This document shows, piece by piece, positions 35,488 to 49,739 of a stretch of DNA of 64,000 nucleotides (its first letter is position 1; every line of letters begins with the position of its first letter). Where the stretch lies: contig NZ_QFZQ01000003.1 of assembly GCF_003171675.1 (NCBI RefSeq), positions 124,001-188,000 on the forward strand, written 5' to 3'. The notes under the pieces are model-generated. The model was not told where the DNA came from. It ran no database searches and saw nothing but the letters and a program-made list of their open reading frames with translations. The stretch comes from Reichenbachiella versicolor. GTDB taxonomy: Bacteria > Bacteroidota > Bacteroidia > Cytophagales > Cyclobacteriaceae. The position numbers and the translations under genes were made by a program.

Positions 35488-37509
<2,022 letters not shown>

Positions 37510-38116
37510 TTATAAATTTTCTATTCTTTTTTCCAGTTTCCATTAGTTCTCATCAAGATTTTCATTTTGAAAGCTCAAGTAGACCTACTTGAACTGATAA
37601 GCCTCTATTGCACAAGTCAGACTCGAATGTATTTAACCGGCTATATCCATTAAAAAATTTATTCCAAGTTTAGAAAACTTCAAGCCAATCGCTTTACTAG
37701 GTTTTAACATTGACTATAATGGTACTTGGTCTCTTTGTTAAAATTCCTCAATTGTTCTTGAACTTTCACTATGGAGTTACAATACAAGGCTTAAAGATGA
37801 ATAATCATCTACCTATTAATATTTCCAAGTAAAAAAGTGTAAATCGTTTTATAGTATTCTACCCATCAGAAAAAATTATGCACACCCTACCTACTATGCA
37901 TATATGCACACCCTAAGACCCTTGCATATATGCATACCCCATATAGTGTGCATAAATTAAATTTGCCTAAATGGGGTTGAATTATTCTGTGATATTGGAG
38001 AAAACTAAAGCCTCTAATACATAAAGCGGGTTTAATTTCTGACACTATAAAATGACTATAGTACATCTAGCCACTTTCTTTATTTTATTTGCCAATCCAT
38101 TTTTGAATAGAAAGTT
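37510..38116. other. 607-bp intergenic region
   Basis: No gene is seen. Its main feature is the 26-bp tandem repeat at 37878-37955. The rest is AT-rich with no clear hairpin. Confidence 0.5.
37878..37955. repeat. Three tandem 26-bp repeats
   Basis: Units start at 37878, 37904 and 37930. The first twelve bases are ATGCACACCCTA, ATGCACACCCTA and ATGCATACCCCA. Unit ends are TGCATAT, TGCATAT and TGCATAA, so each junction forms the palindrome TGCATATATGCA (37897-37908 and 37923-37934). The exact 26-bp period and the junction palindromes suggest a protein-binding array. Confidence 0.85.
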
Positions 38117-38833
38117 TTGAAGAGAATTGATATAAAGTCTTTAGTAGTATATGAAGATGATAGTTTTGTAGCTATTAACAAACCTCCTTTCGTCTCTACA
38201 TTGGAAGATCGAAATGACCCTTATAACATTTTGTCTTTGTATAAGGAACAGTTTGGAGACGGGTTTGTCTGTCATCGTTTAGATAAAGAGACATCTGGGA
38301 CTTTATTAATTGCCAAGACTGAGGAAGCCTATCGTCATGCAGCTTTGCAATTTGAAGATAGATCTGTTCAGAAAGTTTATCATGCTTTGGTAGCAGGTCG
38401 GTTCATGGATGATGTGATCAAAGTTGATTTACCATTGAAGATAGGAGGCTCAGGAAAGGTTCGGGTCGACAATCGTCAAGGCAAAGAAGCAGAGACGCTA
38501 TTTAGAACATATCAAGAGTTTGGACATTATACAATAGTAGAAGCAAAACCAGTTACTGGACGTCGCCATCAAATAAGAGTACATTTAGCTTATATAGAAT
38601 ATCCGATAGTAGGAGATGGGCAATATGGAGGAGAACCAGTATTCCTTTCAAGTTTTAAAAAGAAGTACAAGCCATCAAGAGAAAGAGAAGAACGACCTTT
38701 ATTTGATAGAGTAGCATTGCATGCCTATTCATTAGAGTTTAAAGATCTCAATGGTAATACGGTGAAAATAGAGAGTGATTATCCAAAAGATATTCAAATG
38801 ATCATTGGAAAACTTGAGAAGTACGATAGATGA
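38117..38833 (+). CDS. RluA-family rRNA/tRNA pseudouridine synthase
   Basis: A 238-residue pseudouridine synthase. The catalytic Asp56 lies in CHRLDKETSGTLLIAK, and RHQIRVHLAYI and YPIVGDGQYGG complete the family motifs. The N-terminal S4 RNA-binding domain of larger RluA/C/D proteins is absent, giving the short form. The start is taken as TTG at 38117 because a stop codon lies in frame at 38108 and no ATG occurs near the N-terminus. The RNA target is not known. Confidence 0.88.
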   Translation: MKRIDIKSLVVYEDDSFVAINKPPFVSTLEDRNDPYNILSLYKEQFGDGFVCHRLDKETSGTLLIAKTEEAYRHAALQFEDRSVQKVYHALVAGRFMDDVIKVDLPLKIGGSGKVRVDNRQGKEAETLFRTYQEFGHYTIVEAKPVTGRRHQIRVHLAYIEYPIVGDGQYGGEPVFLSSFKKKYKPSREREERPLFDRVALHAYSLEFKDLNGNTVKIESDYPKDIQMIIGKLEKYDR

Positions 38834-39016
38834 AGAATCACTTTTGACTTAGAATGTTTAAGTAAACATTAGATTTTTACTGGATGGCTGTTATATTGAA
38901 ACTTGTTCGTTTGAAAGAAGCAATTATCTTTGATTTTTAGTGTTTTGATATTCAGATTTTTCTTTTTCCTTTCCTAGTTGCCTCCCCTTATTGTAATAGA
39001 AACTTAAATTGTCGAT

Positions 39017-39844: not shown

Positions 39845-41473
39845 ATGAAATTTTTAAGGGAGATAAAGAATCACTGGTTTTTCTTTAATGTAAGTGTTTT
39901 CTTGATTTTATTATTCTTTGCAATTGATTATTTGATTGCTAATAGGATTACAGATGTAACCAAAGACCTTACTGGACAAGTAATGAGACAGAGATTGATT
40001 TCTCAGAAAAACACTCTTACTTCTCTACTAGATGAATTGGACGCATATGCTATACACGCTCGCAGTGTTTTGGATAGTGCTGCAAGGCCAGATGACAAAG
40101 AAATACTTTCAAAATTGGCAATGGTAAGTGAGTTTAGCCTAGCTCATGATAACATAGTAAGCAGTTGGGCATATGTACGAGATGTTCAAACAGGAACCAA
40201 GAAGATTTTTTCTCAATTTTCAGAGACTGATTCAGAGAGCCAAGTTTTAAATCTCATTTCTCACGTAGGGCTACATACAGATACATTGGTGAGTGAAATA
40301 GTTAGAGACCAAGATTCTATTTTTGAGCGCAAGATTCTTATTAAAGAAATTTTGCCTGATAAGGTGTTAGTTTTTGGTTATGATATTGATCTTATAGGTT
40401 TTTGGAAGAAATATTCTTATCGGTATCCTACAGCAAGTGGATATGACGTGCTTTTTGATGAAAGCGGTATTTGTCTATTTCATCCAGAATCTAAGTATAT
40501 AGGTCAGCGTTTAGATTCTTATTTTAAAGAAGTTACATCTGATCAGGTATTTCACAGAGCGAGAGAGTTAGAAAAAGAACCTTTTCCATCGCTTCAGAAG
40601 TTATTAAGTACTCAAGTACTGTCAGAGTTTTTAGCTCTAGATGTAATTAGGTATTACGATGTGCTAAATGCTGCAAGTGAAAGACAGATAATTCATGTCA
40701 TTAGTTTTCCTGTTGAGATCAACAAACAAGAATCTATCCTTTCAGTCAAACGTTATTTTTATTGGATTAGTGGGTTGACCTTGCTCACTTTTATTGTCAT
40801 ATTAGGACTATCTAGATTACAGTTGAAGAATGAGTTCAATAGGAATTTACTCTACGAACGAGAAAAAGAGCAACTCAAACTGATGAATGAACAGTATCAG
40901 CGAGAAAATGCTGTTCTTCAACTGAAAAGGTTGAAAAAAGTAATAAACCCACATTTTTTATTCAATACCCTCAACTCTTTAGTCATACTTATTGACTCTA
41001 ACCCAGTGCTTTCTCAGGATTTTGTACTTAAGTTATCTGAAGTTTACAGATACCTTCTAAAAGACCCAGAAAAAAATCTAATCACTTTAAAAGAGGAAAT
41101 CGATTTTTTAGAAACCTATATTTTTTTACAACAAGTTAGGTTCAAGAGTAGTCTAAAGGTCTCGATTTCAAATGAAAATCATCGTGATTCTACGCATATT
41201 TTTATCCCCTTTTTGGCTTTGGAAACTTTGGTTGAAAATGCCATAAAACACAATCAGATTACAAAGAAAAGCCCATTGTACATTGATGTTACAGTTGAAG
41301 CTGAGCAAATAGTCGTATCCAATAACTATAACCCTAGAATCGAAAAGGAAACAGAGAGTCATCAGATAGGTTTGGACTATCTGAAAAACGTCTACAACTA
41401 TTATGGAGATTCTTTTAGGACGGAAATAGCCGACAGTAAGTTTATCTGTTACTTGCCTTTACTCCCAAAATAG
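39845..41473 (+). CDS. LytS-type sensor histidine kinase with periplasmic sensor
   Basis: A 542-residue membrane kinase. A first helix (about 13-32) is followed by a periplasmic part of about 260 residues that looks Cache-like (NNxxTSLLDELDAY..., GYDVLFDESGICLFHPE), a second helix (about 305-325) and a cytoplasmic His_kinase domain. The phosphoacceptor H370 is in NPHFLFNTLNSL, and the ATPase has ETLVENAIKHN. This design senses a periplasmic ligand and phosphorylates the adjacent LytTR regulator. Its last codons overlap the first of the 21-bp repeats. Confidence 0.92.
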   Translation: MKFLREIKNHWFFFNVSVFLILLFFAIDYLIANRITDVTKDLTGQVMRQRLISQKNTLTSLLDELDAYAIHARSVLDSAARPDDKEILSKLAMVSEFSLAHDNIVSSWAYVRDVQTGTKKIFSQFSETDSESQVLNLISHVGLHTDTLVSEIVRDQDSIFERKILIKEILPDKVLVFGYDIDLIGFWKKYSYRYPTASGYDVLFDESGICLFHPESKYIGQRLDSYFKEVTSDQVFHRARELEKEPFPSLQKLLSTQVLSEFLALDVIRYYDVLNAASERQIIHVISFPVEINKQESILSVKRYFYWISGLTLLTFIVILGLSRLQLKNEFNRNLLYEREKEQLKLMNEQYQRENAVLQLKRLKKVINPHFLFNTLNSLVILIDSNPVLSQDFVLKLSEVYRYLLKDPEKNLITLKEEIDFLETYIFLQQVRFKSSLKVSISNENHRDSTHIFIPFLALETLVENAIKHNQITKKSPLYIDVTVEAEQIVVSNNYNPRIEKETESHQIGLDYLKNVYNYYGDSFRTEIADSKFICYLPLLPK

Positions 41474-41513
41474 ATTATTTCACTCCCAAAATTTGATCAC
41501 TCAGTCCTAATTT
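41461..41513 (+). promoter_or_regulatory. Three 21-bp-period direct repeats before the protease-SusCD operon
   Basis: ACTCCCAAAAT at 41461 and 41482 and the related AGTCCTAATTT at 41503 recur with an exact 21-bp period. The array lies immediately upstream of the predicted -33 element and right after the LytTR/LytS genes. This is the geometry of a LytTR activator site. Confidence 0.6.
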
Positions 41514-41516
41514 TTT

Positions 41517-41545
41517 TTTGTTGGTAAGATGCAATTATAAGTTTG
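41517..41545 (+). promoter_or_regulatory. Predicted promoter of the metalloprotease-SusCD operon
   Basis: TTTG at 41517-41520 and TAAGTTTG at 41538-41545 (exact TAnnTTTG) are separated by 17 bp. The start codon at 41564 is 19 bp further on, implying a short leader. Confidence 0.5.
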
Positions 41546-41563: not shown

Positions 41564-44074
41564 ATGAGGAGTTATTTGAGATGTTGGGTTGTACTGTTTT
41601 TTCTACTCTTTGCTTATGATGGCTATTCACAAGCGAAGGAAGAAAAAGACACTACATCAGTTGATAGTACTAGCGATGAGTTTTCTTACAAGAAATTAAT
41701 GGATGAAGGCCAGGTGAAAAAAGGTCTTTTCAGTGTGTATCAACTAAAGGAAGACATCTATTTTGAAATCCCAGACTCCTTACTGGCTCAAGACATACTG
41801 ATAGTCAATAAAATCTCTAGTGTACCTCATGCACTAAACGGTCATGGGCTAAATAAAGGAATGGCTTATGAAAATAAGCTCATTCGTTTTTATAAAGATA
41901 CCTTAATGAAGAAGGTATGGGTTAAGACCTTAAATCCCGCAGTGAAATCACCTGAAGAGGATTTGATTACTCTATCTGTCAAGAAGAATTATAGTGAATC
42001 GGTCATAGAAGAATTCGAGATAGCCTGTCAAAATGATGACTCGACGTCGGTTGTTATTAAAGTCAATAAAGTTTTTGATGGAAGAGAGAAGAGTTTTACA
42101 GACTTACTTTCTAGCACAGGTTTAGGCGGGAGTATCAAGTCGAAGTTATCGAAAATAGAATCCGTCAAGTCTTTTCCCGAAAATGTTGTAGTGAAGTCCT
42201 TGATGACGACCTCTGTTACAGAAGGAGGTGGGCCAGCGATGCCTTTGACAATCGGTATTACTGTCAATATAGTCCGTTTACCATCTCAAATAATGAAACC
42301 GAGGTTTGCAGATGATAGGATAGGTTACTTCAGTATTCCAATGGATTACTTTTCAGATGAGCAACATAGTGTTGAAAATAGACGCTTATTGACAAGGTGG
42401 AGATTGGAACCTCGAGAAGAAGATATTGAAAAATATAAGGCAGGTCAGTTGGTAGAGCCTAAGAAACCCATTGTCTATTATATAGACCCCGCAACACCCT
42501 CCAATTGGAAATCATACATCAAAAAAGGTGTATTAGATTGGAATTTGGCATTTGAAGAAGCAGGGTTCAAAAATGCAATTCAGGTTAAGATACCAGATGT
42601 TGATGATCAAGATTTTGATATTGATGACGTAAGGTACTCTGTGATTACCTATGCAGCATCAAATCAACAAAATGCCATGGGGCCTTCTATAATTGACCCC
42701 CGAAGTGGTGAGATATTGGAAGCAGATATTATTTGGTGGCATAATGTCATGAAGACTCTGCATAAATGGATCAGAATACAAACAGGCCCTATAGATCCAA
42801 ATGCAAGAGCTAATAAGTTTTCGGATGAATATATGGGAGAGGCAATAAGGTTCGTTTCTTCTCATGAAGTGGGGCATACTTTTGGATTAGCGCACAATAT
42901 GGGTGCTTCTTATAGTTATCCAGTTGATTCTCTGCGTTCTCCAACTTTTACAGAAAAAATGGCAGGAACATCTGCATCCATCATGGATTATGCGAGATAC
43001 AACTATGTGGCGCAACCTGGTGACTCAATAAAAGAGCTTCACCCAGAAATCGGTGTATATGATTTATATGCGATTGCTTGGGGTTATAGGTGGTTAGATA
43101 CTAAAACACCACAAGAAGAGGTAGATGTACTCAATCAATGGTTAAGAGCTCATGAAGATGATCCATTGTATTTCTACGGACCTCAGCAAGGTAACGGAAT
43201 CATAGATCCTCGTGCACAATCGGAAGATTTGGGTAATGATGCAGTATTAGCTAGTCAGTATGGATTACTGAATTTGAAAAGAATAGTACCTGAGATCATT
43301 AATTGGACTGAAGAGGAAGGGAAAAGTTATTACGAAGCCTCTAAGCTTTACAAAGGAGTGATCGATCAGTGGCTTCTTTATACAGGCCATGTCATGGCTA
43401 ACATAGGTGGTGTGTACCTCAATAACTCAGTCTATGGAGATGGTAAGGATAGCTATGTTCCTGTACCTACTGAAATTCAAGAAAAATCTTTAAAGTATTT
43501 GATTGATAACGCTGTACTACCCCAGAATTGGCTTTTTACACCTGAATTAATCAATAAAGTGTATGCAGTAAGAGATGCCCCTGATGGTAAGAGATACTAT
43601 TCTCCTGTGTCACTTATGAGAGCATATCAAGAGGAAGTGATGTATAGTCTTCTTAAAACAAATAGAATGATGAGGCTGGTTGATAATCAAGTATTATACA
43701 AGGAAGGACAGAAGGTATTTACAGCTCATGATATTTATGATGCACTATTCGAAGCTGTTTTTAAGAACCCATCTCAGCACTCTTTATCAATATATGAGCG
43801 TATGACTCAAAAAAATTATGTAGACGTATTGACTATTGATAGAATAAAGCTACTTAAGAAAACACATGAAAAAACACTGAGTTGCTCTCATCGCCATTTT
43901 AAGAATGTGCATTACAGCTATATTCCTAGGGTGTCGGATGAGGCATCTGGTAAACGTGCGGAGCTAGAGCGCGTCATGAAATTTTTAGAAAAAAATAAGA
44001 AAAAAGGGGATAGAGCCACCAGAGAGCACTATGGTGACTTGTTGGCAAGAATTAAATACAACCTAGAAAAATAA
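41564..44074 (+). CDS. Exported zinc metalloprotease (DUF5117/DUF4953 type)
   Basis: An 836-residue protein with a signal peptide (about 1-22, ending GYSQA). The central zinc site HEVGHTFGLAH (434-444) has the three His ligands and catalytic Glu of the metzincin pattern, with a downstream SIMDYARYN Met-turn. An N-terminal beta-rich domain (about 60-330) and helical C-terminal domain flank it, as in Bacteroidota proteases with DUF5117 and DUF4953. An upstream TTG at 41543 is rejected as start because the ATG gives a normal signal peptide. It leads an operon with SusC (6 bp gap), SusD and a lipoprotein, suggesting protein or peptide uptake. Confidence 0.92.
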   Translation: MRSYLRCWVVLFFLLFAYDGYSQAKEEKDTTSVDSTSDEFSYKKLMDEGQVKKGLFSVYQLKEDIYFEIPDSLLAQDILIVNKISSVPHALNGHGLNKGMAYENKLIRFYKDTLMKKVWVKTLNPAVKSPEEDLITLSVKKNYSESVIEEFEIACQNDDSTSVVIKVNKVFDGREKSFTDLLSSTGLGGSIKSKLSKIESVKSFPENVVVKSLMTTSVTEGGGPAMPLTIGITVNIVRLPSQIMKPRFADDRIGYFSIPMDYFSDEQHSVENRRLLTRWRLEPREEDIEKYKAGQLVEPKKPIVYYIDPATPSNWKSYIKKGVLDWNLAFEEAGFKNAIQVKIPDVDDQDFDIDDVRYSVITYAASNQQNAMGPSIIDPRSGEILEADIIWWHNVMKTLHKWIRIQTGPIDPNARANKFSDEYMGEAIRFVSSHEVGHTFGLAHNMGASYSYPVDSLRSPTFTEKMAGTSASIMDYARYNYVAQPGDSIKELHPEIGVYDLYAIAWGYRWLDTKTPQEEVDVLNQWLRAHEDDPLYFYGPQQGNGIIDPRAQSEDLGNDAVLASQYGLLNLKRIVPEIINWTEEEGKSYYEASKLYKGVIDQWLLYTGHVMANIGGVYLNNSVYGDGKDSYVPVPTEIQEKSLKYLIDNAVLPQNWLFTPELINKVYAVRDAPDGKRYYSPVSLMRAYQEEVMYSLLKTNRMMRLVDNQVLYKEGQKVFTAHDIYDALFEAVFKNPSQHSLSIYERMTQKNYVDVLTIDRIKLLKKTHEKTLSCSHRHFKNVHYSYIPRVSDEASGKRAELERVMKFLEKNKKKGDRATREHYGDLLARIKYNLEK

Positions 44075-44079
44075 GAGAT

Positions 44080-47000
44080 ATGATGAAGCATCTGATCTAC
44101 ATATTCCTACTCTTTCCGATAGCTGCTTTTGCTCAAAAGCAAGTAAGCGGTCAGGTAATTGATATTGAGAATCAAGAACCTATTATAGGTGCTTCTGTAT
44201 ACGTGTCTCTTACAGCAGTAGAACAGGAGCGTTCAGTAGTTGGAGGACTGACGGATATTGATGGAAAGTTTTCATTTGAAGTCCCTGAGCAAGCAAAAAA
44301 TCTGATCGTTTCATTTACAGGATATGAAACACAAACAATTAAAATCGACCAGCAGACTAATGATTTAAAGATCTCTCTTAAGCTATCAGTACAAATGCTG
44401 GATGAGATTGTTACCACTGGATATCAAGAGACTACTTTGCGAAAAGCAACTTCATCTTATGTCAAAGTGGAGGCTAAGGATATCAAGCAAGTAGGAGTGG
44501 CAGACGTAGATCAAATGCTTGCTGGTCAGTTAGCAGGTGTTTGGGTACAACCAACCAATGGAGCCCCAGGAGCACCTGCTAAAATCAGGATTAGAGGTAC
44601 AGCAACTTTGAATGGATCTTCAGACCCTCTTTGGGTATTGGATGGAATACCGCTTGACGGTAATCAAGTACCCAGCGATTTTACTGATAAAGATAATATT
44701 GATCAGCTGAAAACGTACCCAATTGCAGGTATCAACCCAGATGATATAGAAAGTATAACAGTATTGAAAGATGCAGCAGCTACCTCGATATATGGTGCCA
44801 GAGCAGCAAACGGCGTTATCGTAATAACTACAAAGACAGGTGAAAAAGGGAAAAATAGGATTAATATCAACGCAGCTACTTTTATCACTCAACGCCCGGA
44901 TTTTAGTAAGCTCAATTTAATGAATTCATCTCAAAAAGTAGATTTTGAGCTTTTCTTAGCAAGTAGACCAGATTTAGACTATCAATCAGAAAGAGGGGAA
45001 GTAGCTCGGATACTCAATTCATTGGGAGAGTATGACGATTTAGCTGAAAAAGGTTTTTCAGGTTTAAGTCCAGAAGCCCAAGCCGCCATTAATAAACTTA
45101 GAACAACGAATACCAATTGGGGAGAAGAGCTATATCGAACAACAATTAATCAGCAATATGGTTTGAGCATGTCAGGAGGGAATGACAAAAATGTGTATTA
45201 CTTCTCAGCTGGTTATTATGATGAACAAGCAGCAACTATAGGAGCTGGCAAAAGGAGGTTTAACCTTACCGTTAAGAATACCTATTCTCTTAACAACTAT
45301 TTAAAATTTGGAGCAGCATTATTTGGAAGTCAAAATAAAACCTACTCTTATTTAAGGGAAAGAGATGCTATAACCAGTCCAGCGGCATATGTGAGAAATG
45401 TAAACCCATATTTAGGATTACGGGACGAGAATGGTGATTTCATTTATGATCCAGACCTTACTGAGATTTCTGATGTTGATCTTGACTATAATGTACTCGA
45501 AGAAAGGCAAAATACAAGTAATGAGTTAATTGCAAATTCGTTTAAGTCAATTTTTAATCTTGATTTACGAACGAATATAGGTTTAAGATTATCTACTCAG
45601 CTAGGACTTCAGTTTGACAATGAAAGGTCAGAGCAGTTCTCAGATGAGAATAGTTATTTCACTAGAAAATTTGAATTAAGGTCTAAGTACACAGATTCAT
45701 CTGGAGAGGATTTGTTTTACCTGCCCAAAGGAGGAATTATTCAGAACTCAAACTCTAATGCCTTTCAATATACTTGGAAAACTACAGCAAACTATGGGCA
45801 GTTGTTTTTCGATAGACACGATGTTGATATACTAATAGGGACTGAGTTTAGAGAAAGAACTAATACAGATATAGATAATAAAGCATTTGGGTTTAATCCT
45901 AATACTTTGACATCAATTCCAATCACTAATGATTTAGTATTAACGAATTCTGGTTTTAAACAATATCAAAAGTTTGTGGCACATGATGCTTTTACTTCTT
46001 TTTTTGGGACTCTATCATATATATATAGTAGTAAGTATTCGATATACAGCAGTTTAAGATATGATGGATCCAATCTGTTTGGAGTAAATCCAAAATTCAG
46101 GTATCTGCCAATCTGGTCTGTTGCAGGTGCTTGGACGCTATCAAACGAGAGTTTTTTTAGTAGTAGTTATTTAGATATTCTAAAATTCAGAGTATCGTAT
46201 GGGATACAAGGAAATATCGATAAAACTACATCCCCTTTTGTAATAGGGACTTTTAATACAGAGAGTGTTTTACCAGGGATAGAAGAGGAGGTTATTAGAA
46301 CCACAGGCGCACCAAATGCCGATTTAAGATGGGAAAAAACCACTTCTATCAATCTAGGATTTGATCTTGGGCTATGGGGGAATAGAGTATTTCTTACTAG
46401 TGATTATTATTATCGTAAGAGTACAGATATCATTGGATTTAGATCTGTGCCATTAGAATCAGGTTTTAACTTTATCAATACTAATTGGGCGACAATTAGT
46501 AACAGAGGATTCGAGATTGTTTTAAATACTGTCAATGTATCTAATAAACGTTTTCGGTGGTCTACAGCTTTTAACATCTCATCCAATAAGAGTAAAGTCA
46601 ATCAAATAGAAATAAGGGAAGAAGAATTTACCCCTTCAAGAAAGGGATATGGTGCAGATGCTGTTTTTGCAATCAAGACAGATGGGGTAGATAGTAATGG
46701 CTTACCCTTGTTTAAAAAAGATGGAAGAACTTTAACTGCTGTTGAGTTTTACAATTTAGCTGAAGGTACGGATGGAAGTCAGCTGACTAGAGAAGAACAT
46801 AGAAATTTATATACTTATATAGGTGATGCTGCTCCTAAGTTTACTGGAGGATTGAATAACACATTTCGTTACGGCCCATTTGATTTACAAATATCTGCCA
46901 ATTTTAGCTTCAAACAACTAGTGCGGAGATTACCATCATATAATATGACAGTAACTAGCCCTCGGTTAAACTATAGTACTGAAATTCTTTCTGCTGGTGA

Positions 47001-47346
47001 AGGTAGTTTACCAGGATTGATAGGGAGAAAATCAAGAGGGTTTGATACTGAGCTGGTATATAGATGGTTTAACTCATTTGACGTAGGAAACACTTACGAT
47101 CATTTTGATATTTGGATTAAGGAAATCTCATATGTCAGAATTAATAGCATTCGATTAGGGTATAATCTACCTAATCAAGCACTTAAAAAACTTAATATTT
47201 CTTCAGCTAGGGTTTTTGTTGAGGGAAGAAACTTATTTGTTTTTGGTACGAAGATTGAAAACTTCTTTGATCCAGAAACTTACGGTAGTCAATATGCACA
47301 GCCGATTCCTCGAATGATTTCTACAGGTTTAAAGGTATCGTTTTAA
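44080..47346 (+). CDS. SusC/RagA-family TonB-linked outer membrane receptor
   Basis: A 1088-residue outer-membrane transporter. The signal peptide (1-18, AFA-Q) is followed by a carboxypeptidase-regulatory-like domain (about 20-105), then the plug (PLWVLDGIPLDG, IESITVLKDAAATSIYGARAANGVIVITTK) and a long beta-barrel (from about 280). The barrel ends in GLKVSF with a terminal aromatic residue. It imports large ligands using TonB energy together with SusD. The gene order with a protease, and no glycosidase nearby, suggests a peptide ligand. The STN domain is absent. Confidence 0.95.
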   Translation: MMKHLIYIFLLFPIAAFAQKQVSGQVIDIENQEPIIGASVYVSLTAVEQERSVVGGLTDIDGKFSFEVPEQAKNLIVSFTGYETQTIKIDQQTNDLKISLKLSVQMLDEIVTTGYQETTLRKATSSYVKVEAKDIKQVGVADVDQMLAGQLAGVWVQPTNGAPGAPAKIRIRGTATLNGSSDPLWVLDGIPLDGNQVPSDFTDKDNIDQLKTYPIAGINPDDIESITVLKDAAATSIYGARAANGVIVITTKTGEKGKNRININAATFITQRPDFSKLNLMNSSQKVDFELFLASRPDLDYQSERGEVARILNSLGEYDDLAEKGFSGLSPEAQAAINKLRTTNTNWGEELYRTTINQQYGLSMSGGNDKNVYYFSAGYYDEQAATIGAGKRRFNLTVKNTYSLNNYLKFGAALFGSQNKTYSYLRERDAITSPAAYVRNVNPYLGLRDENGDFIYDPDLTEISDVDLDYNVLEERQNTSNELIANSFKSIFNLDLRTNIGLRLSTQLGLQFDNERSEQFSDENSYFTRKFELRSKYTDSSGEDLFYLPKGGIIQNSNSNAFQYTWKTTANYGQLFFDRHDVDILIGTEFRERTNTDIDNKAFGFNPNTLTSIPITNDLVLTNSGFKQYQKFVAHDAFTSFFGTLSYIYSSKYSIYSSLRYDGSNLFGVNPKFRYLPIWSVAGAWTLSNESFFSSSYLDILKFRVSYGIQGNIDKTTSPFVIGTFNTESVLPGIEEEVIRTTGAPNADLRWEKTTSINLGFDLGLWGNRVFLTSDYYYRKSTDIIGFRSVPLESGFNFINTNWATISNRGFEIVLNTVNVSNKRFRWSTAFNISSNKSKVNQIEIREEEFTPSRKGYGADAVFAIKTDGVDSNGLPLFKKDGRTLTAVEFYNLAEGTDGSQLTREEHRNLYTYIGDAAPKFTGGLNNTFRYGPFDLQISANFSFKQLVRRLPSYNMTVTSPRLNYSTEILSAGEGSLPGLIGRKSRGFDTELVYRWFNSFDVGNTYDHFDIWIKEISYVRINSIRLGYNLPNQALKKLNISSARVFVEGRNLFVFGTKIENFFDPETYGSQYAQPIPRMISTGLKVSF

Positions 47347-47348
47347 TT

Positions 47349-48680
47349 ATGATGAAAAAGATGGCACAAATTAGTTGGATTATAGGAGTACTAATGATTA
47401 GCTGTGATGATTATTTGGATATAGAACCAGTTGGATTGGTTATTCCTAAATCGGTAGAGGAGTATAGAAGCTTTTTGACAGCGGCATATTCATTCCCTAA
47501 ACAACATAAGATATTAACTACTTATAGGGCTGATGAAATCACTTTAAATGGAGATGAGTTAGGAGTAGATCAATATCAGGATATCTATACTTGGAATGAT
47601 TTAAATCCTAATTTAAATACTATTGATTTTCCTTATGCTGTTTTTTACACGGTCATCTTTTATACCAATCATGTAATACAGAACGAGAAAGAGATAACTG
47701 GAGATCAAGAAGATATTGATCAATTAGTAGGAGAGGCTTATGCCTTAAGAGCTCTTCAGTATTTTGATTTAGTAAATTTATATGGAAAGCCTTACGATGA
47801 ATCTAACGCAATATCAGATGAAGGTGTTCCTATCGTTACAGAGTATGATTCTGAAAGGAGATTTGCTAAAGAGTCCATAGAGGAAGTTTACAAGTTAATT
47901 ATAAGCGACATAGAGGAATCTGAAAAACGATTAAACATTGAACAACAAGAGATAGGGTTTAATTATCGATTCTCCCTTGTAGCCATTAAGAGTTTCAAGG
48001 CAAGGGTTTTTCTTTTTCAAAAGAAATGGCAACAATCTATTGATCTAGCCTTAGAAGCGTTAGCTATAAAGCCAGATTTGATGGATTTAAATGTTGATGA
48101 ATCAATCATGTCATCTGAATATAATTCTATAGAGTCCATACTGGCATTAGATCTAGTTGTCTCATTAGACATTATTCAAAATGCTCACGTTTCTGATGAA
48201 TTGATCACTAATTATGATCAGTTAGAAGACAAAAGGTTTTCTAACTATTTCAAAGAAAATTCAGATGGAAATTATAGTTCCAAAAAAGGTACTCTTGATA
48301 ATTTTAAATGCACCTTTAGAACTGCGGAACTCTACATGATTTTGGCGGAATCATATGCCAGACTTGGAGGGGATCAAAACTTGAATTTAAGTAAAGGGTA
48401 CCTGTACCAGCTCCTAGAAAATAGATACACTCCTGCCGGCTTGGAAGCCTATAAAAATAGAGTCGAACCACTCAATGCAGATGACTTAATACAAGAAATT
48501 CTCATAGAACGTCAACGCGAATTTGCTTTAGAAGGGCATCGCTGGAATGACTTGAGAAGAACTACTCAAAAGAAAATTACAAGATTGTTTGATGGGACTA
48601 CTTATGTGTTAGAGCAAAATGATGAACGGTATACTTTGCCATTTCCTCAGGACGCCATAATTAACAATCCAGACCTATAA
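47349..48680 (+). CDS. SusD/RagB-family surface lipoprotein
   Basis: A 443-residue lipoprotein, starting 3 bp after the susC stop. The lipobox ends at C19 (VLMISC) followed by DDYLDIEPVG, the normal SusD start. Tetratricopeptide-like helices (GEAYALRALQYFDLVNLYG, SFKARVFLFQKKWQQSI) and the C-terminal RQREFALEGHRWNDLRRT motif confirm the family. SusD caps the SusC barrel and binds the ligand at the surface. It is shorter than many SusD proteins, and the ligand is unknown. Confidence 0.94.
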   Translation: MMKKMAQISWIIGVLMISCDDYLDIEPVGLVIPKSVEEYRSFLTAAYSFPKQHKILTTYRADEITLNGDELGVDQYQDIYTWNDLNPNLNTIDFPYAVFYTVIFYTNHVIQNEKEITGDQEDIDQLVGEAYALRALQYFDLVNLYGKPYDESNAISDEGVPIVTEYDSERRFAKESIEEVYKLIISDIEESEKRLNIEQQEIGFNYRFSLVAIKSFKARVFLFQKKWQQSIDLALEALAIKPDLMDLNVDESIMSSEYNSIESILALDLVVSLDIIQNAHVSDELITNYDQLEDKRFSNYFKENSDGNYSSKKGTLDNFKCTFRTAELYMILAESYARLGGDQNLNLSKGYLYQLLENRYTPAGLEAYKNRVEPLNADDLIQEILIERQREFALEGHRWNDLRRTTQKKITRLFDGTTYVLEQNDERYTLPFPQDAIINNPDL

Positions 48681-48716: not shown

Positions 48717-49739
48717 ATGAGAATAATCAAGTCAGTATTGGTTTTAATTGCCTTAACCTTAGGATTCATAGCTTGCACAGAAGATGAGCCTAGCAAGTCA
48801 AACTTAAACACCATTGAGTCTTTCGAAATTGATTTCGGTGATGCGGATCCTGTCAATTATGAATTTGGAGATGATATTTCTGTCAGCGTACCTTTTGGTA
48901 CTGATGTTACAGGTAAAACTGTTACAGTAACAGTTTCTGAAAACGCAACGGTAGAGCCTGCATCTGGAAGTGTGATAGATTTTGTAGATGGCGAGTCAAT
49001 TGAATTCAAAGTAACTGCCGAAAACGGTGAAATAAAGTCTTACAACGTTACAGTAACAATAAGAGGTGAAGTTGGTAGTGGTTCAAAATTGGATACATAT
49101 ACAGTAGAAGACCCATTTAGAGGAAATTCTACAACCACGTATAAGTATTCTGACGAGTCGGGTTTTGTAATTGAGACTAATAAAAGTACAGTCTTATTTG
49201 GTGAAGAGACTAAAACTAAAACAACATTCGTCTACGATGATAAAAATCAAGTAGTAGAAGAGAAAACCGAAAGTGGGGATGATTTAGGAAGTACTATTTA
49301 CACTTACAATACGGTTGGTCAGATTATTAGTTCAGAATATACATTAAACGATGAGTTGACATATACCTATGTGTATACATATGATGCTATTGGATTGCTA
49401 TTAAAATCGGAAAGAACTGATCTAACAGATGACAATTTTAAATCAAGTGATGAATTTACAATAGAAAGTGGAAACGTAGTAAAGGAAATAAACTCTAATC
49501 AAGAGTCTGTTGCAACATATGATGATAAAAGGAATCCTTTTAAACCACTTTATCCATCTGCATATGCTGACATAAACATAGGTATACAGTCTGTGAATGA
49601 AAACAATCCTATTTCAGGTACATTATCAGATGATGATATTGTGTATGAATACAACGAAGATGGATATCCTATATCAGCCAACTATACTTATTTTGATGGT
49701 TTGGCTACCGTTAGTAAGACCTACACCTACTTTGAGTAA
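48717..49739 (+). CDS. Surface lipoprotein with Ig-like and repeat-rich C-terminal domain
   Basis: A 340-residue predicted lipoprotein, lipobox ending at C20 (GFIAC), followed by TEDEPS. Residues about 30-120 form an Ig-like/DUF5018-type domain (VTGKTVTVTVSENATVEP). The rest contains repeated short strands with Tyr-Asp and Tyr-Thr patterns (TIYTYNTVGQIISSEY, YVYTYDAIGLLLKSE), like YD/RHS-type repeats. It sits 36 bp after susD and probably is an accessory ligand-binding protein of the SusCD complex. No enzyme motif is seen. Confidence 0.82.
   Translation: MRIIKSVLVLIALTLGFIACTEDEPSKSNLNTIESFEIDFGDADPVNYEFGDDISVSVPFGTDVTGKTVTVTVSENATVEPASGSVIDFVDGESIEFKVTAENGEIKSYNVTVTIRGEVGSGSKLDTYTVEDPFRGNSTTTYKYSDESGFVIETNKSTVLFGEETKTKTTFVYDDKNQVVEEKTESGDDLGSTIYTYNTVGQIISSEYTLNDELTYTYVYTYDAIGLLLKSERTDLTDDNFKSSDEFTIESGNVVKEINSNQESVATYDDKRNPFKPLYPSAYADINIGIQSVNENNPISGTLSDDDIVYEYNEDGYPISANYTYFDGLATVSKTYTYFE

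Follow-up and report, generated by a model that had tools for sequence, protein, structure and literature searches.

The window analysed here, a 64-kb stretch of the Reichenbachiella versicolor genome, contains a two-component system with a LytTR response regulator, followed on the same strand by genes for a protease and a SusC/SusD outer membrane importer. Does the DNA between the kinase and protease genes hold the site through which the two-component system could control the importer operon? A sequence-only reading of the window had proposed such a site, in the form of a LytTR-like array of 21-bp repeats. We therefore analyzed the array in the window, at orthologous loci and in searches that used the motif alone.

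The repeat array and the genes around it

Direct reading of the sequence bore out the claim that ACTCCCAAAAT is present at 41461 and 41482, and a variant of it at 41503, with a step of exactly 21 bp from one repeat start to the next (Table 1). The repeats were said to overlap the end of a "LytS" gene, and indeed the first repeat runs across the 3' end of the kinase gene (39845-41473), taking in its final codons and its stop; the array reaches from these codons to just 5' of the protease promoter, where the predicted TTTG-N17-TAAGTTTG is present (41517-41520 and 41538-41545). The 41482 repeat is the top plus-strand match in the window to a motif derived from all arrays described below, a motif that includes the 41482 repeat itself. 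No 21-bp repeat was found 5' of the regulator gene (38834-39016).

Table 1 Features of the repeat array, its promoter and the neighbouring genes in the window
Feature	Position	Strand	Basis or remark
Distal repeat ACTCCCAAAAT	41461-41471	+	Direct reading; overlaps kinase stop codon
Middle repeat ACTCCCAAAAT	41482-41492	+	TTTC immediately 5'
Promoter-proximal degenerate repeat AGTCCTAATTT	41503-41513	+	7/11 identical to ACTCCCAAAAT
Possible -33 element TTTG	41517-41520	+	Direct reading; mostly a T-tract at the same place in orthologues
-7 element TAAGTTTG	41538-41545	+	35 bp past the start of the 41503 repeat; 17 bp after TTTG
LytTR response regulator, REC + LytTR, 257 aa	39017..39790	+	Pfam PF00072 and PF04397; predicted binder of the array
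Histidine kinase PF06580, dCache-like extracytoplasmic sensor, 542 aa	39845..41473	+	Pfam, predicted structure, Foldseek
DUF5118-DUF5117-DUF4953 met-zincin protease	41564..44074	+	ORF list, Pfam
SusC/RagA TonB-linked outer membrane protein	44080..47346	+	Pfam, TIGR04056, structure match
SusD-like lipoprotein	47349..48680	+	Pfam, structure match
Uncharacterised protein, probably a lipoprotein, final gene of the presumed operon	48717..49739	+	Orthologues beside SusD

The repeat pair occurs once in the 64-kb window with up to three mismatches permitted, and in none of 100 dinucleotide shuffles. An order-1 Markov model predicts 0.03 identical 11-mer pairs at distance 21 per 64 kb, and one was observed. 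A genome-wide search (5.25 Mb) with the pair in 9-mer form gave 15 matches with up to three mismatches, two of which are the window array, as compared with 12 for a reversed control. The only exact match is the window array, and the two next best, with two mismatches, sit inside ORFs. Because the genome-wide look-alikes are close to the control level and the next best lie in ORFs, the array seems to be a lone local site in the R. versicolor genome rather than one of many. The 11-mer ACTCCCAAAAT on its own is not unusual in frequency; the evidential weight is in the spacing and the conservation, not in the single 11-mer.

For the protease, the ATG at 41564 seems a likelier start than the TTG at 41543, which overlaps the -7 element. 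The SusC protein belongs to the SusC/RagA family, scoring 654.9 bits against TIGR04056 (cut-off 368.25). An orthologue of the last gene (48717-49739) adjoins SusD in two further loci (L066 and L080) and partly in a third (L068), and at E 0.001 neither Pfam nor NCBIfam matched its product. The R. versicolor genome has 15 LytTR genes in all.

The structural model of the regulator comprises a receiver and a LytTR domain, with ComE as the best full-length match; no LytTR structure came up when the LytTR domain by itself was searched against PDB sequences. In the kinase, whose model is of moderate confidence (mean pLDDT 72.6), Pfam detected PF06580 alone above the cut-off and no LytS-type sensor, and the protein is not a LytS in the strict sense as had been assumed. 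A Foldseek search with its sensor region retrieved dCache ligand-binding domains, several of them from amino-acid chemoreceptors including PctA and Mlp37, along with unrelated long-helix matches; Pfam dCache_1, at a lax threshold, was detected in nine of 13 aligned kinases, the window kinase not among them. The sequence-only reading had further predicted that extracellular peptide sensing drives the operon, which the dCache-like sensor does not support. Given the resemblance of the modelled sensor to dCache domains, including those of amino-acid chemoreceptors, the kinase is more likely to sense a small molecule than a peptide, and amino acids freed by the protease would be an attractive candidate signal.

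Elsewhere in the window, in the gap that separates an ORF ending at 37509 from one starting at 38117, TATGCACACCC is repeated at a 26-bp step (37877-37935), with a third, variant copy 26 bp further on and ATGCATAT palindromes. This could be another operator array.

Conservation at orthologous kinase loci

As LytTR regulators are too numerous, we used the kinase rather than the regulator as the query for orthologues. Kinase matches were present in four of 390 genomes of the family at E 1e-40 and in 12 of 395 genomes of the phylum at E 1e-50, the window's own genome included in both counts, which makes the distribution of the system patchy. One more locus, from Algibacter lectus (Flavobacteriaceae), was found by a regulator search. 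The 16 loci (the window, three from the family, 11 from the phylum and the one from Algibacter) reach into other families of the class, and ten of them come from a single genus, g112, and are not independent.

The sequence-only reading had staked its claim on the repeats being retained in relatives that keep the gene order, and it passed this test: all 16 kinase loci show ACTC repeats at a step of exactly 21 bp, which either span the kinase stop or follow it. The distance between the array and the kinase stop varies from locus to locus, and the 21-bp step is constant. This count excludes a 17th locus (G613), which came to light through the motif itself. In each of the 15 loci outside the window, all with wide flanks, we found genes for the protease, SusC, SusD and a homologous LytTR regulator. 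The regulator gene lies upstream in three of these loci, is divergent in two and follows SusD in ten, and the array keeps its place through these rearrangements. In G605 (L080) the protease gene is on the opposite strand, apart from the kinase gene, and one array precedes SusC and another the protease. The array is not due to chance.

Arrays found by motif and their link to LytTR systems

A search of the 395 phylum genomes for TCACTCC-N14-TCACTCC returned, besides the protease locus and among the matches inspected, many simple repeats, an element of genus g103, matches in ORFs and a few others. In two genomes (G702 and G150) the array precedes a FAS1 (fasciclin) gene, which is followed by genes for a PF06580-type kinase and a LytTR regulator (Pfam was run on both regulators and one FAS1 protein). 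The matches in G767, G763 (at a contig end), G757 and G046 showed no LytTR link within the 1.5-2 kb inspected. Searching the 390 family genomes for TTCACTCC-N14-TCACTC gave 51 matches, from which we set aside 16 belonging to a multi-copy element of g103, seven simple or tandem repeats and 15 inside ORFs of at least 363 codons. The remaining 13 matches fall in 12 places, and ten of these adjoin LytTR-system genes. Eight of the places precede FAS1 genes, accompanied by kinase and regulator in G024, G329, G264, G150 and G313 and by the regulator in G238; neither gene was found in the stretch inspected around the FAS1 arrays of G152 and G296 (contig end). Two places are directly before kinase-regulator pairs (G279 and G250), one is the protease locus of G211, and in G129 a triple array has a cytochrome c gene on one side and a LytTR regulator gene on the other. 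The arrays of G024 and G129 were kept despite overlapping ORFs of 123 and 103 codons, respectively, both on the opposite strand, as was that of G329, where the FAS1 reading frame extends upstream over the array.

The loci with the order FAS1 gene, PF06580-type kinase and LytTR regulator and a 21-bp array are L136, L137, L169-L171 and L182 with L187; no paper combining LytTR and fasciclin was found in the openly licensed literature. As a separate observation, an element with TTTCACTCCCCACGGCTACCGCTTCACTCC or near variants is present in one to three copies in several g103 genomes (L139-L142, L144, L145, L147, L149-L153 and L184), and had no Rfam match in L184 and L153.

We compared spacings in a subset of 171 genomes, in which spacing 21 gave 17 matches, with four places in the kept class, against two matches at spacing 20 and four at spacing 22, one of the latter before a FAS1 gene. 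The FAS1 promoter of L210 has a spacing of 22 bp. The array spacing is strongly, not absolutely, 21 bp.

Might a different, unlinked transcription factor occupy the repeats, their nearness to the two-component genes reflecting operon organisation only? The regulator gene lies downstream of SusD, not beside the array, in ten of the 15 wide loci, and a few motif matches have no LytTR gene in the stretch inspected, both of which are compatible with such a factor. A global factor should have many sites, however, whereas TNACTCC-N14-TNACTCC gave zero to three further matches in each of 15 genomes, 11 in total as against 18 for the reversed control. Moreover, where the motif alone led to non-homologous operons (FAS1, kinase-regulator alone), most of the matches were again close to LytTR systems, and we regard an unlinked factor as improbable. 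Together, the 16 kinase loci and the motif-only searches support the operator of LytTR type that had been predicted to link the two-component system to the protease-SusCD operon.

How general is the motif among LytTR systems? Around other LytTR genes, a scan of 1.5-kb flanks for CACTC or ACTCC pairs revealed no array, one ACTCC pair in L033 being something other than the array; flanks of 1.5 kb are too short, which wider regions partly cured. We scanned 20 such wider LytTR regions, four of the R. versicolor genome and 16 of relatives, with a weight matrix built from the array sites. The two best pairs at any spacing from 15 to 30 were both at 21 bp, in L192 and L193, just before kinase-regulator operons. 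Three weaker TTCAYTC-type repeats at 21 bp are present in L195 and L196 before a TonB receptor operon (TonB receptor, DUF2141 protein, TPR-like protein, kinase and LytTR regulator), and L207 (FAS1) has a looser array at 21 and 22. The L192/L193 and L195/L196 regions all come from the genus of the window and are not independent. In the intergenic scan, 16 of the 20 further regions showed no array, including all four of the R. versicolor genome, and the array sequence is therefore not universal for LytTR regulators.

A tree built from 65 regulators groups the 17 from protease loci in one clade (100/97) and the six from FAS1 loci in a second, less firm one (97/77), with both inside a clade of 56 rows. 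The motif therefore either predates at least two regulator branches or was taken up again by them. The residues that separate motif-bearing regulators are weak, non-diagnostic positions only. We lean, by a little, towards TTCAYTCC at 21 bp being an operator code common to a large Bacteroidota clade of LytTR regulators, in which separate branches read nearly one site. If this is true, the regulators of protease-SusCD operons, FAS1 lipoproteins, TonB receptor operons and kinase-regulator autoregulation would read a near-identical site, and the targets of orphan systems would be predictable from sequence alone.

Promoter distance and comparison with known systems

Promoters of Bacteroidota have the consensus TAnnTTTG at -7 and TTTG at -33. 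We compared 18 arrays, those of the 16 kinase loci, the second array of G605 and that of G613, all of which have the 21-bp period. The offset between the start of the proximal repeat and a -7-like element is 35 bp in 15 arrays and 36 bp in the other three. A relaxed -7 pattern, [TC]AnnTT[TC][GA], is present at 35-36 bp in 17 of the 18 arrays, and in G687 the match at 36 is 7/8; the rest of the scanned 90 bp contains the pattern five times, all 18 arrays pooled. The 41503 repeat lines up with the proximal repeat of the arrays at orthologous loci, and the fixed 35-36 bp distance to the -7 element identifies this degenerate repeat as the proximal site of the window. The window and its closest relative, G007, have an extra distal (third, upstream) copy. 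The TTTG at -33 is mostly not kept among the arrays: the window has it at N17, and otherwise only L083 has a TTG at 15-23 bp. A generic scan for sigma-70 promoters and terminators gave no site, a scan that does not bear on the -33/-7 type of Bacteroidota.

The array could instead be a repressor site, keeping the operon silent in the absence of the signal or letting the regulator compete with the polymerase at -33, and the proximal repeat does end a few bases 5' of the -33 position. The sites are upstream of the -7 element, though, and not over it, and a fixed distance of 35-36 bp combined with a poor -33 suits an activator-dependent promoter. LytTR sites arranged in this way serve activation in S. 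mutans and in E. coli (PMC6193735 and PMC4847170), and repression appears very unlikely to us. That the repeats arose by chance, or mirror the conserved kinase C-terminus (LPLLPK-stop) together with low complexity, has a negligible probability: the 41461 repeat overlaps the kinase stop and single 11-mers are not rare, yet the shuffles never produced the pair, and we rejected a coding constraint because the 21 bp are kept whether the array of a given genome lies across or after the stop, and because in G605 a full array precedes the detached protease gene, at a place that is not the end of any kinase gene. We also rejected an RNA element or leader, since the repeats are upstream of the -7 element.

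We consider it very likely, from sequence and genomic context, that the array is the operator of the adjacent LytTR regulator, which would activate the protease-SusCD promoter upon a signal from the kinase. According to this activation model, a signal at the dCache-like domain of the kinase would lead to phosphorylation of the regulator. Two LytTR domains, possibly three in the window, would then be placed side by side on one DNA face, at TTCACTCC-type sites separated by two helical turns, and the regulators would bind consecutive sites cooperatively. With the last LytTR domain just upstream of the weak -33 region, the bound regulators would bring RNA polymerase to the -7 element, 35-36 bp downstream, and the protease, SusC, SusD and lipoprotein genes would be switched on as one operon.

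The sensor of BtsS and YpdA is of the 5TM LytS type, whereas the kinase described here has a dCache-like sensor and the target is a protease with SusCD. The pyruvate-responsive YpdA/YpdB and BtsS/BtsR systems of gamma-proteobacteria likewise combine a histidine kinase, a LytTR regulator and a dedicated transporter as target (PMC5552118). Among Bacteroidota, PMC10197871 mentions Flavobacterium johnsoniae lines with mutations in the LytTR regulator FJOH_RS09515 and the next-numbered histidine kinase, FJOH_RS09520. LytTR direct repeats are shared with Bacteroides LRS-like operons, in which repeats of 11 bp separated by 11 bp were predicted upstream of promoters (PMC6193735). The LytTR regulator of those operons has membrane segments, whereas here a receiver-domain regulator, a separate kinase, a period of 21 and a separate target operon are found.

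Known LytTR sites consist of 9-11 nt repeats with 11-13 nt spacers (PMC4847170), and S. mutans sites are 4-11 bp upstream of -35 (PMC6193735). The array agrees with LytTR operators in repeat size and spacer (21-bp period), in the linked gene for a LytTR-domain regulator and in its position just 5' of the -35/-33 region. The operators of AgrA, ComE, VirR, YpdB, BtsR and HdrR have the same layout of direct repeats just upstream of the promoter, as described in PMC4847170 and PMC6193735. The core differs, being TTCACTCC here and GGCATTTCAT in the YpdB site (PMC4847170), a comparison made with the sequence of YpdB alone.

Compared with the RagAB/SusCD importers, the window SusC best matches the solved structures 8ypu and 8ypt, followed by SusC homologues and RagA. 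These two entries are named merely as SusC/RagA family or membrane protein, and the openly licensed literature yielded no paper on 8YPT or 8YPU. In the same literature, as searched, we found no LytTR operator of this sequence, no description of a binding site for a two-component LytTR regulator of Bacteroidota and no naming of DUF5117, DUF5118 or DUF4953.

Bacteroidota genomes can hold many LytTR genes, and their targets become predictable from a site that can be recognised by its sequence, its spacing and its distance to the promoter. The array ties an uncharacterised secreted-type met-zincin and a SusCD importer to one sensor, and it raises the question of how cross-talk is avoided among the systems of one phylum if the repeats that they read are almost identical. 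Set against the known systems, the kind of site is already familiar and the architecture ordinary; what is new, as far as we searched, is the sequence, the Bacteroidota targets and the use of the site by several LytTR systems.
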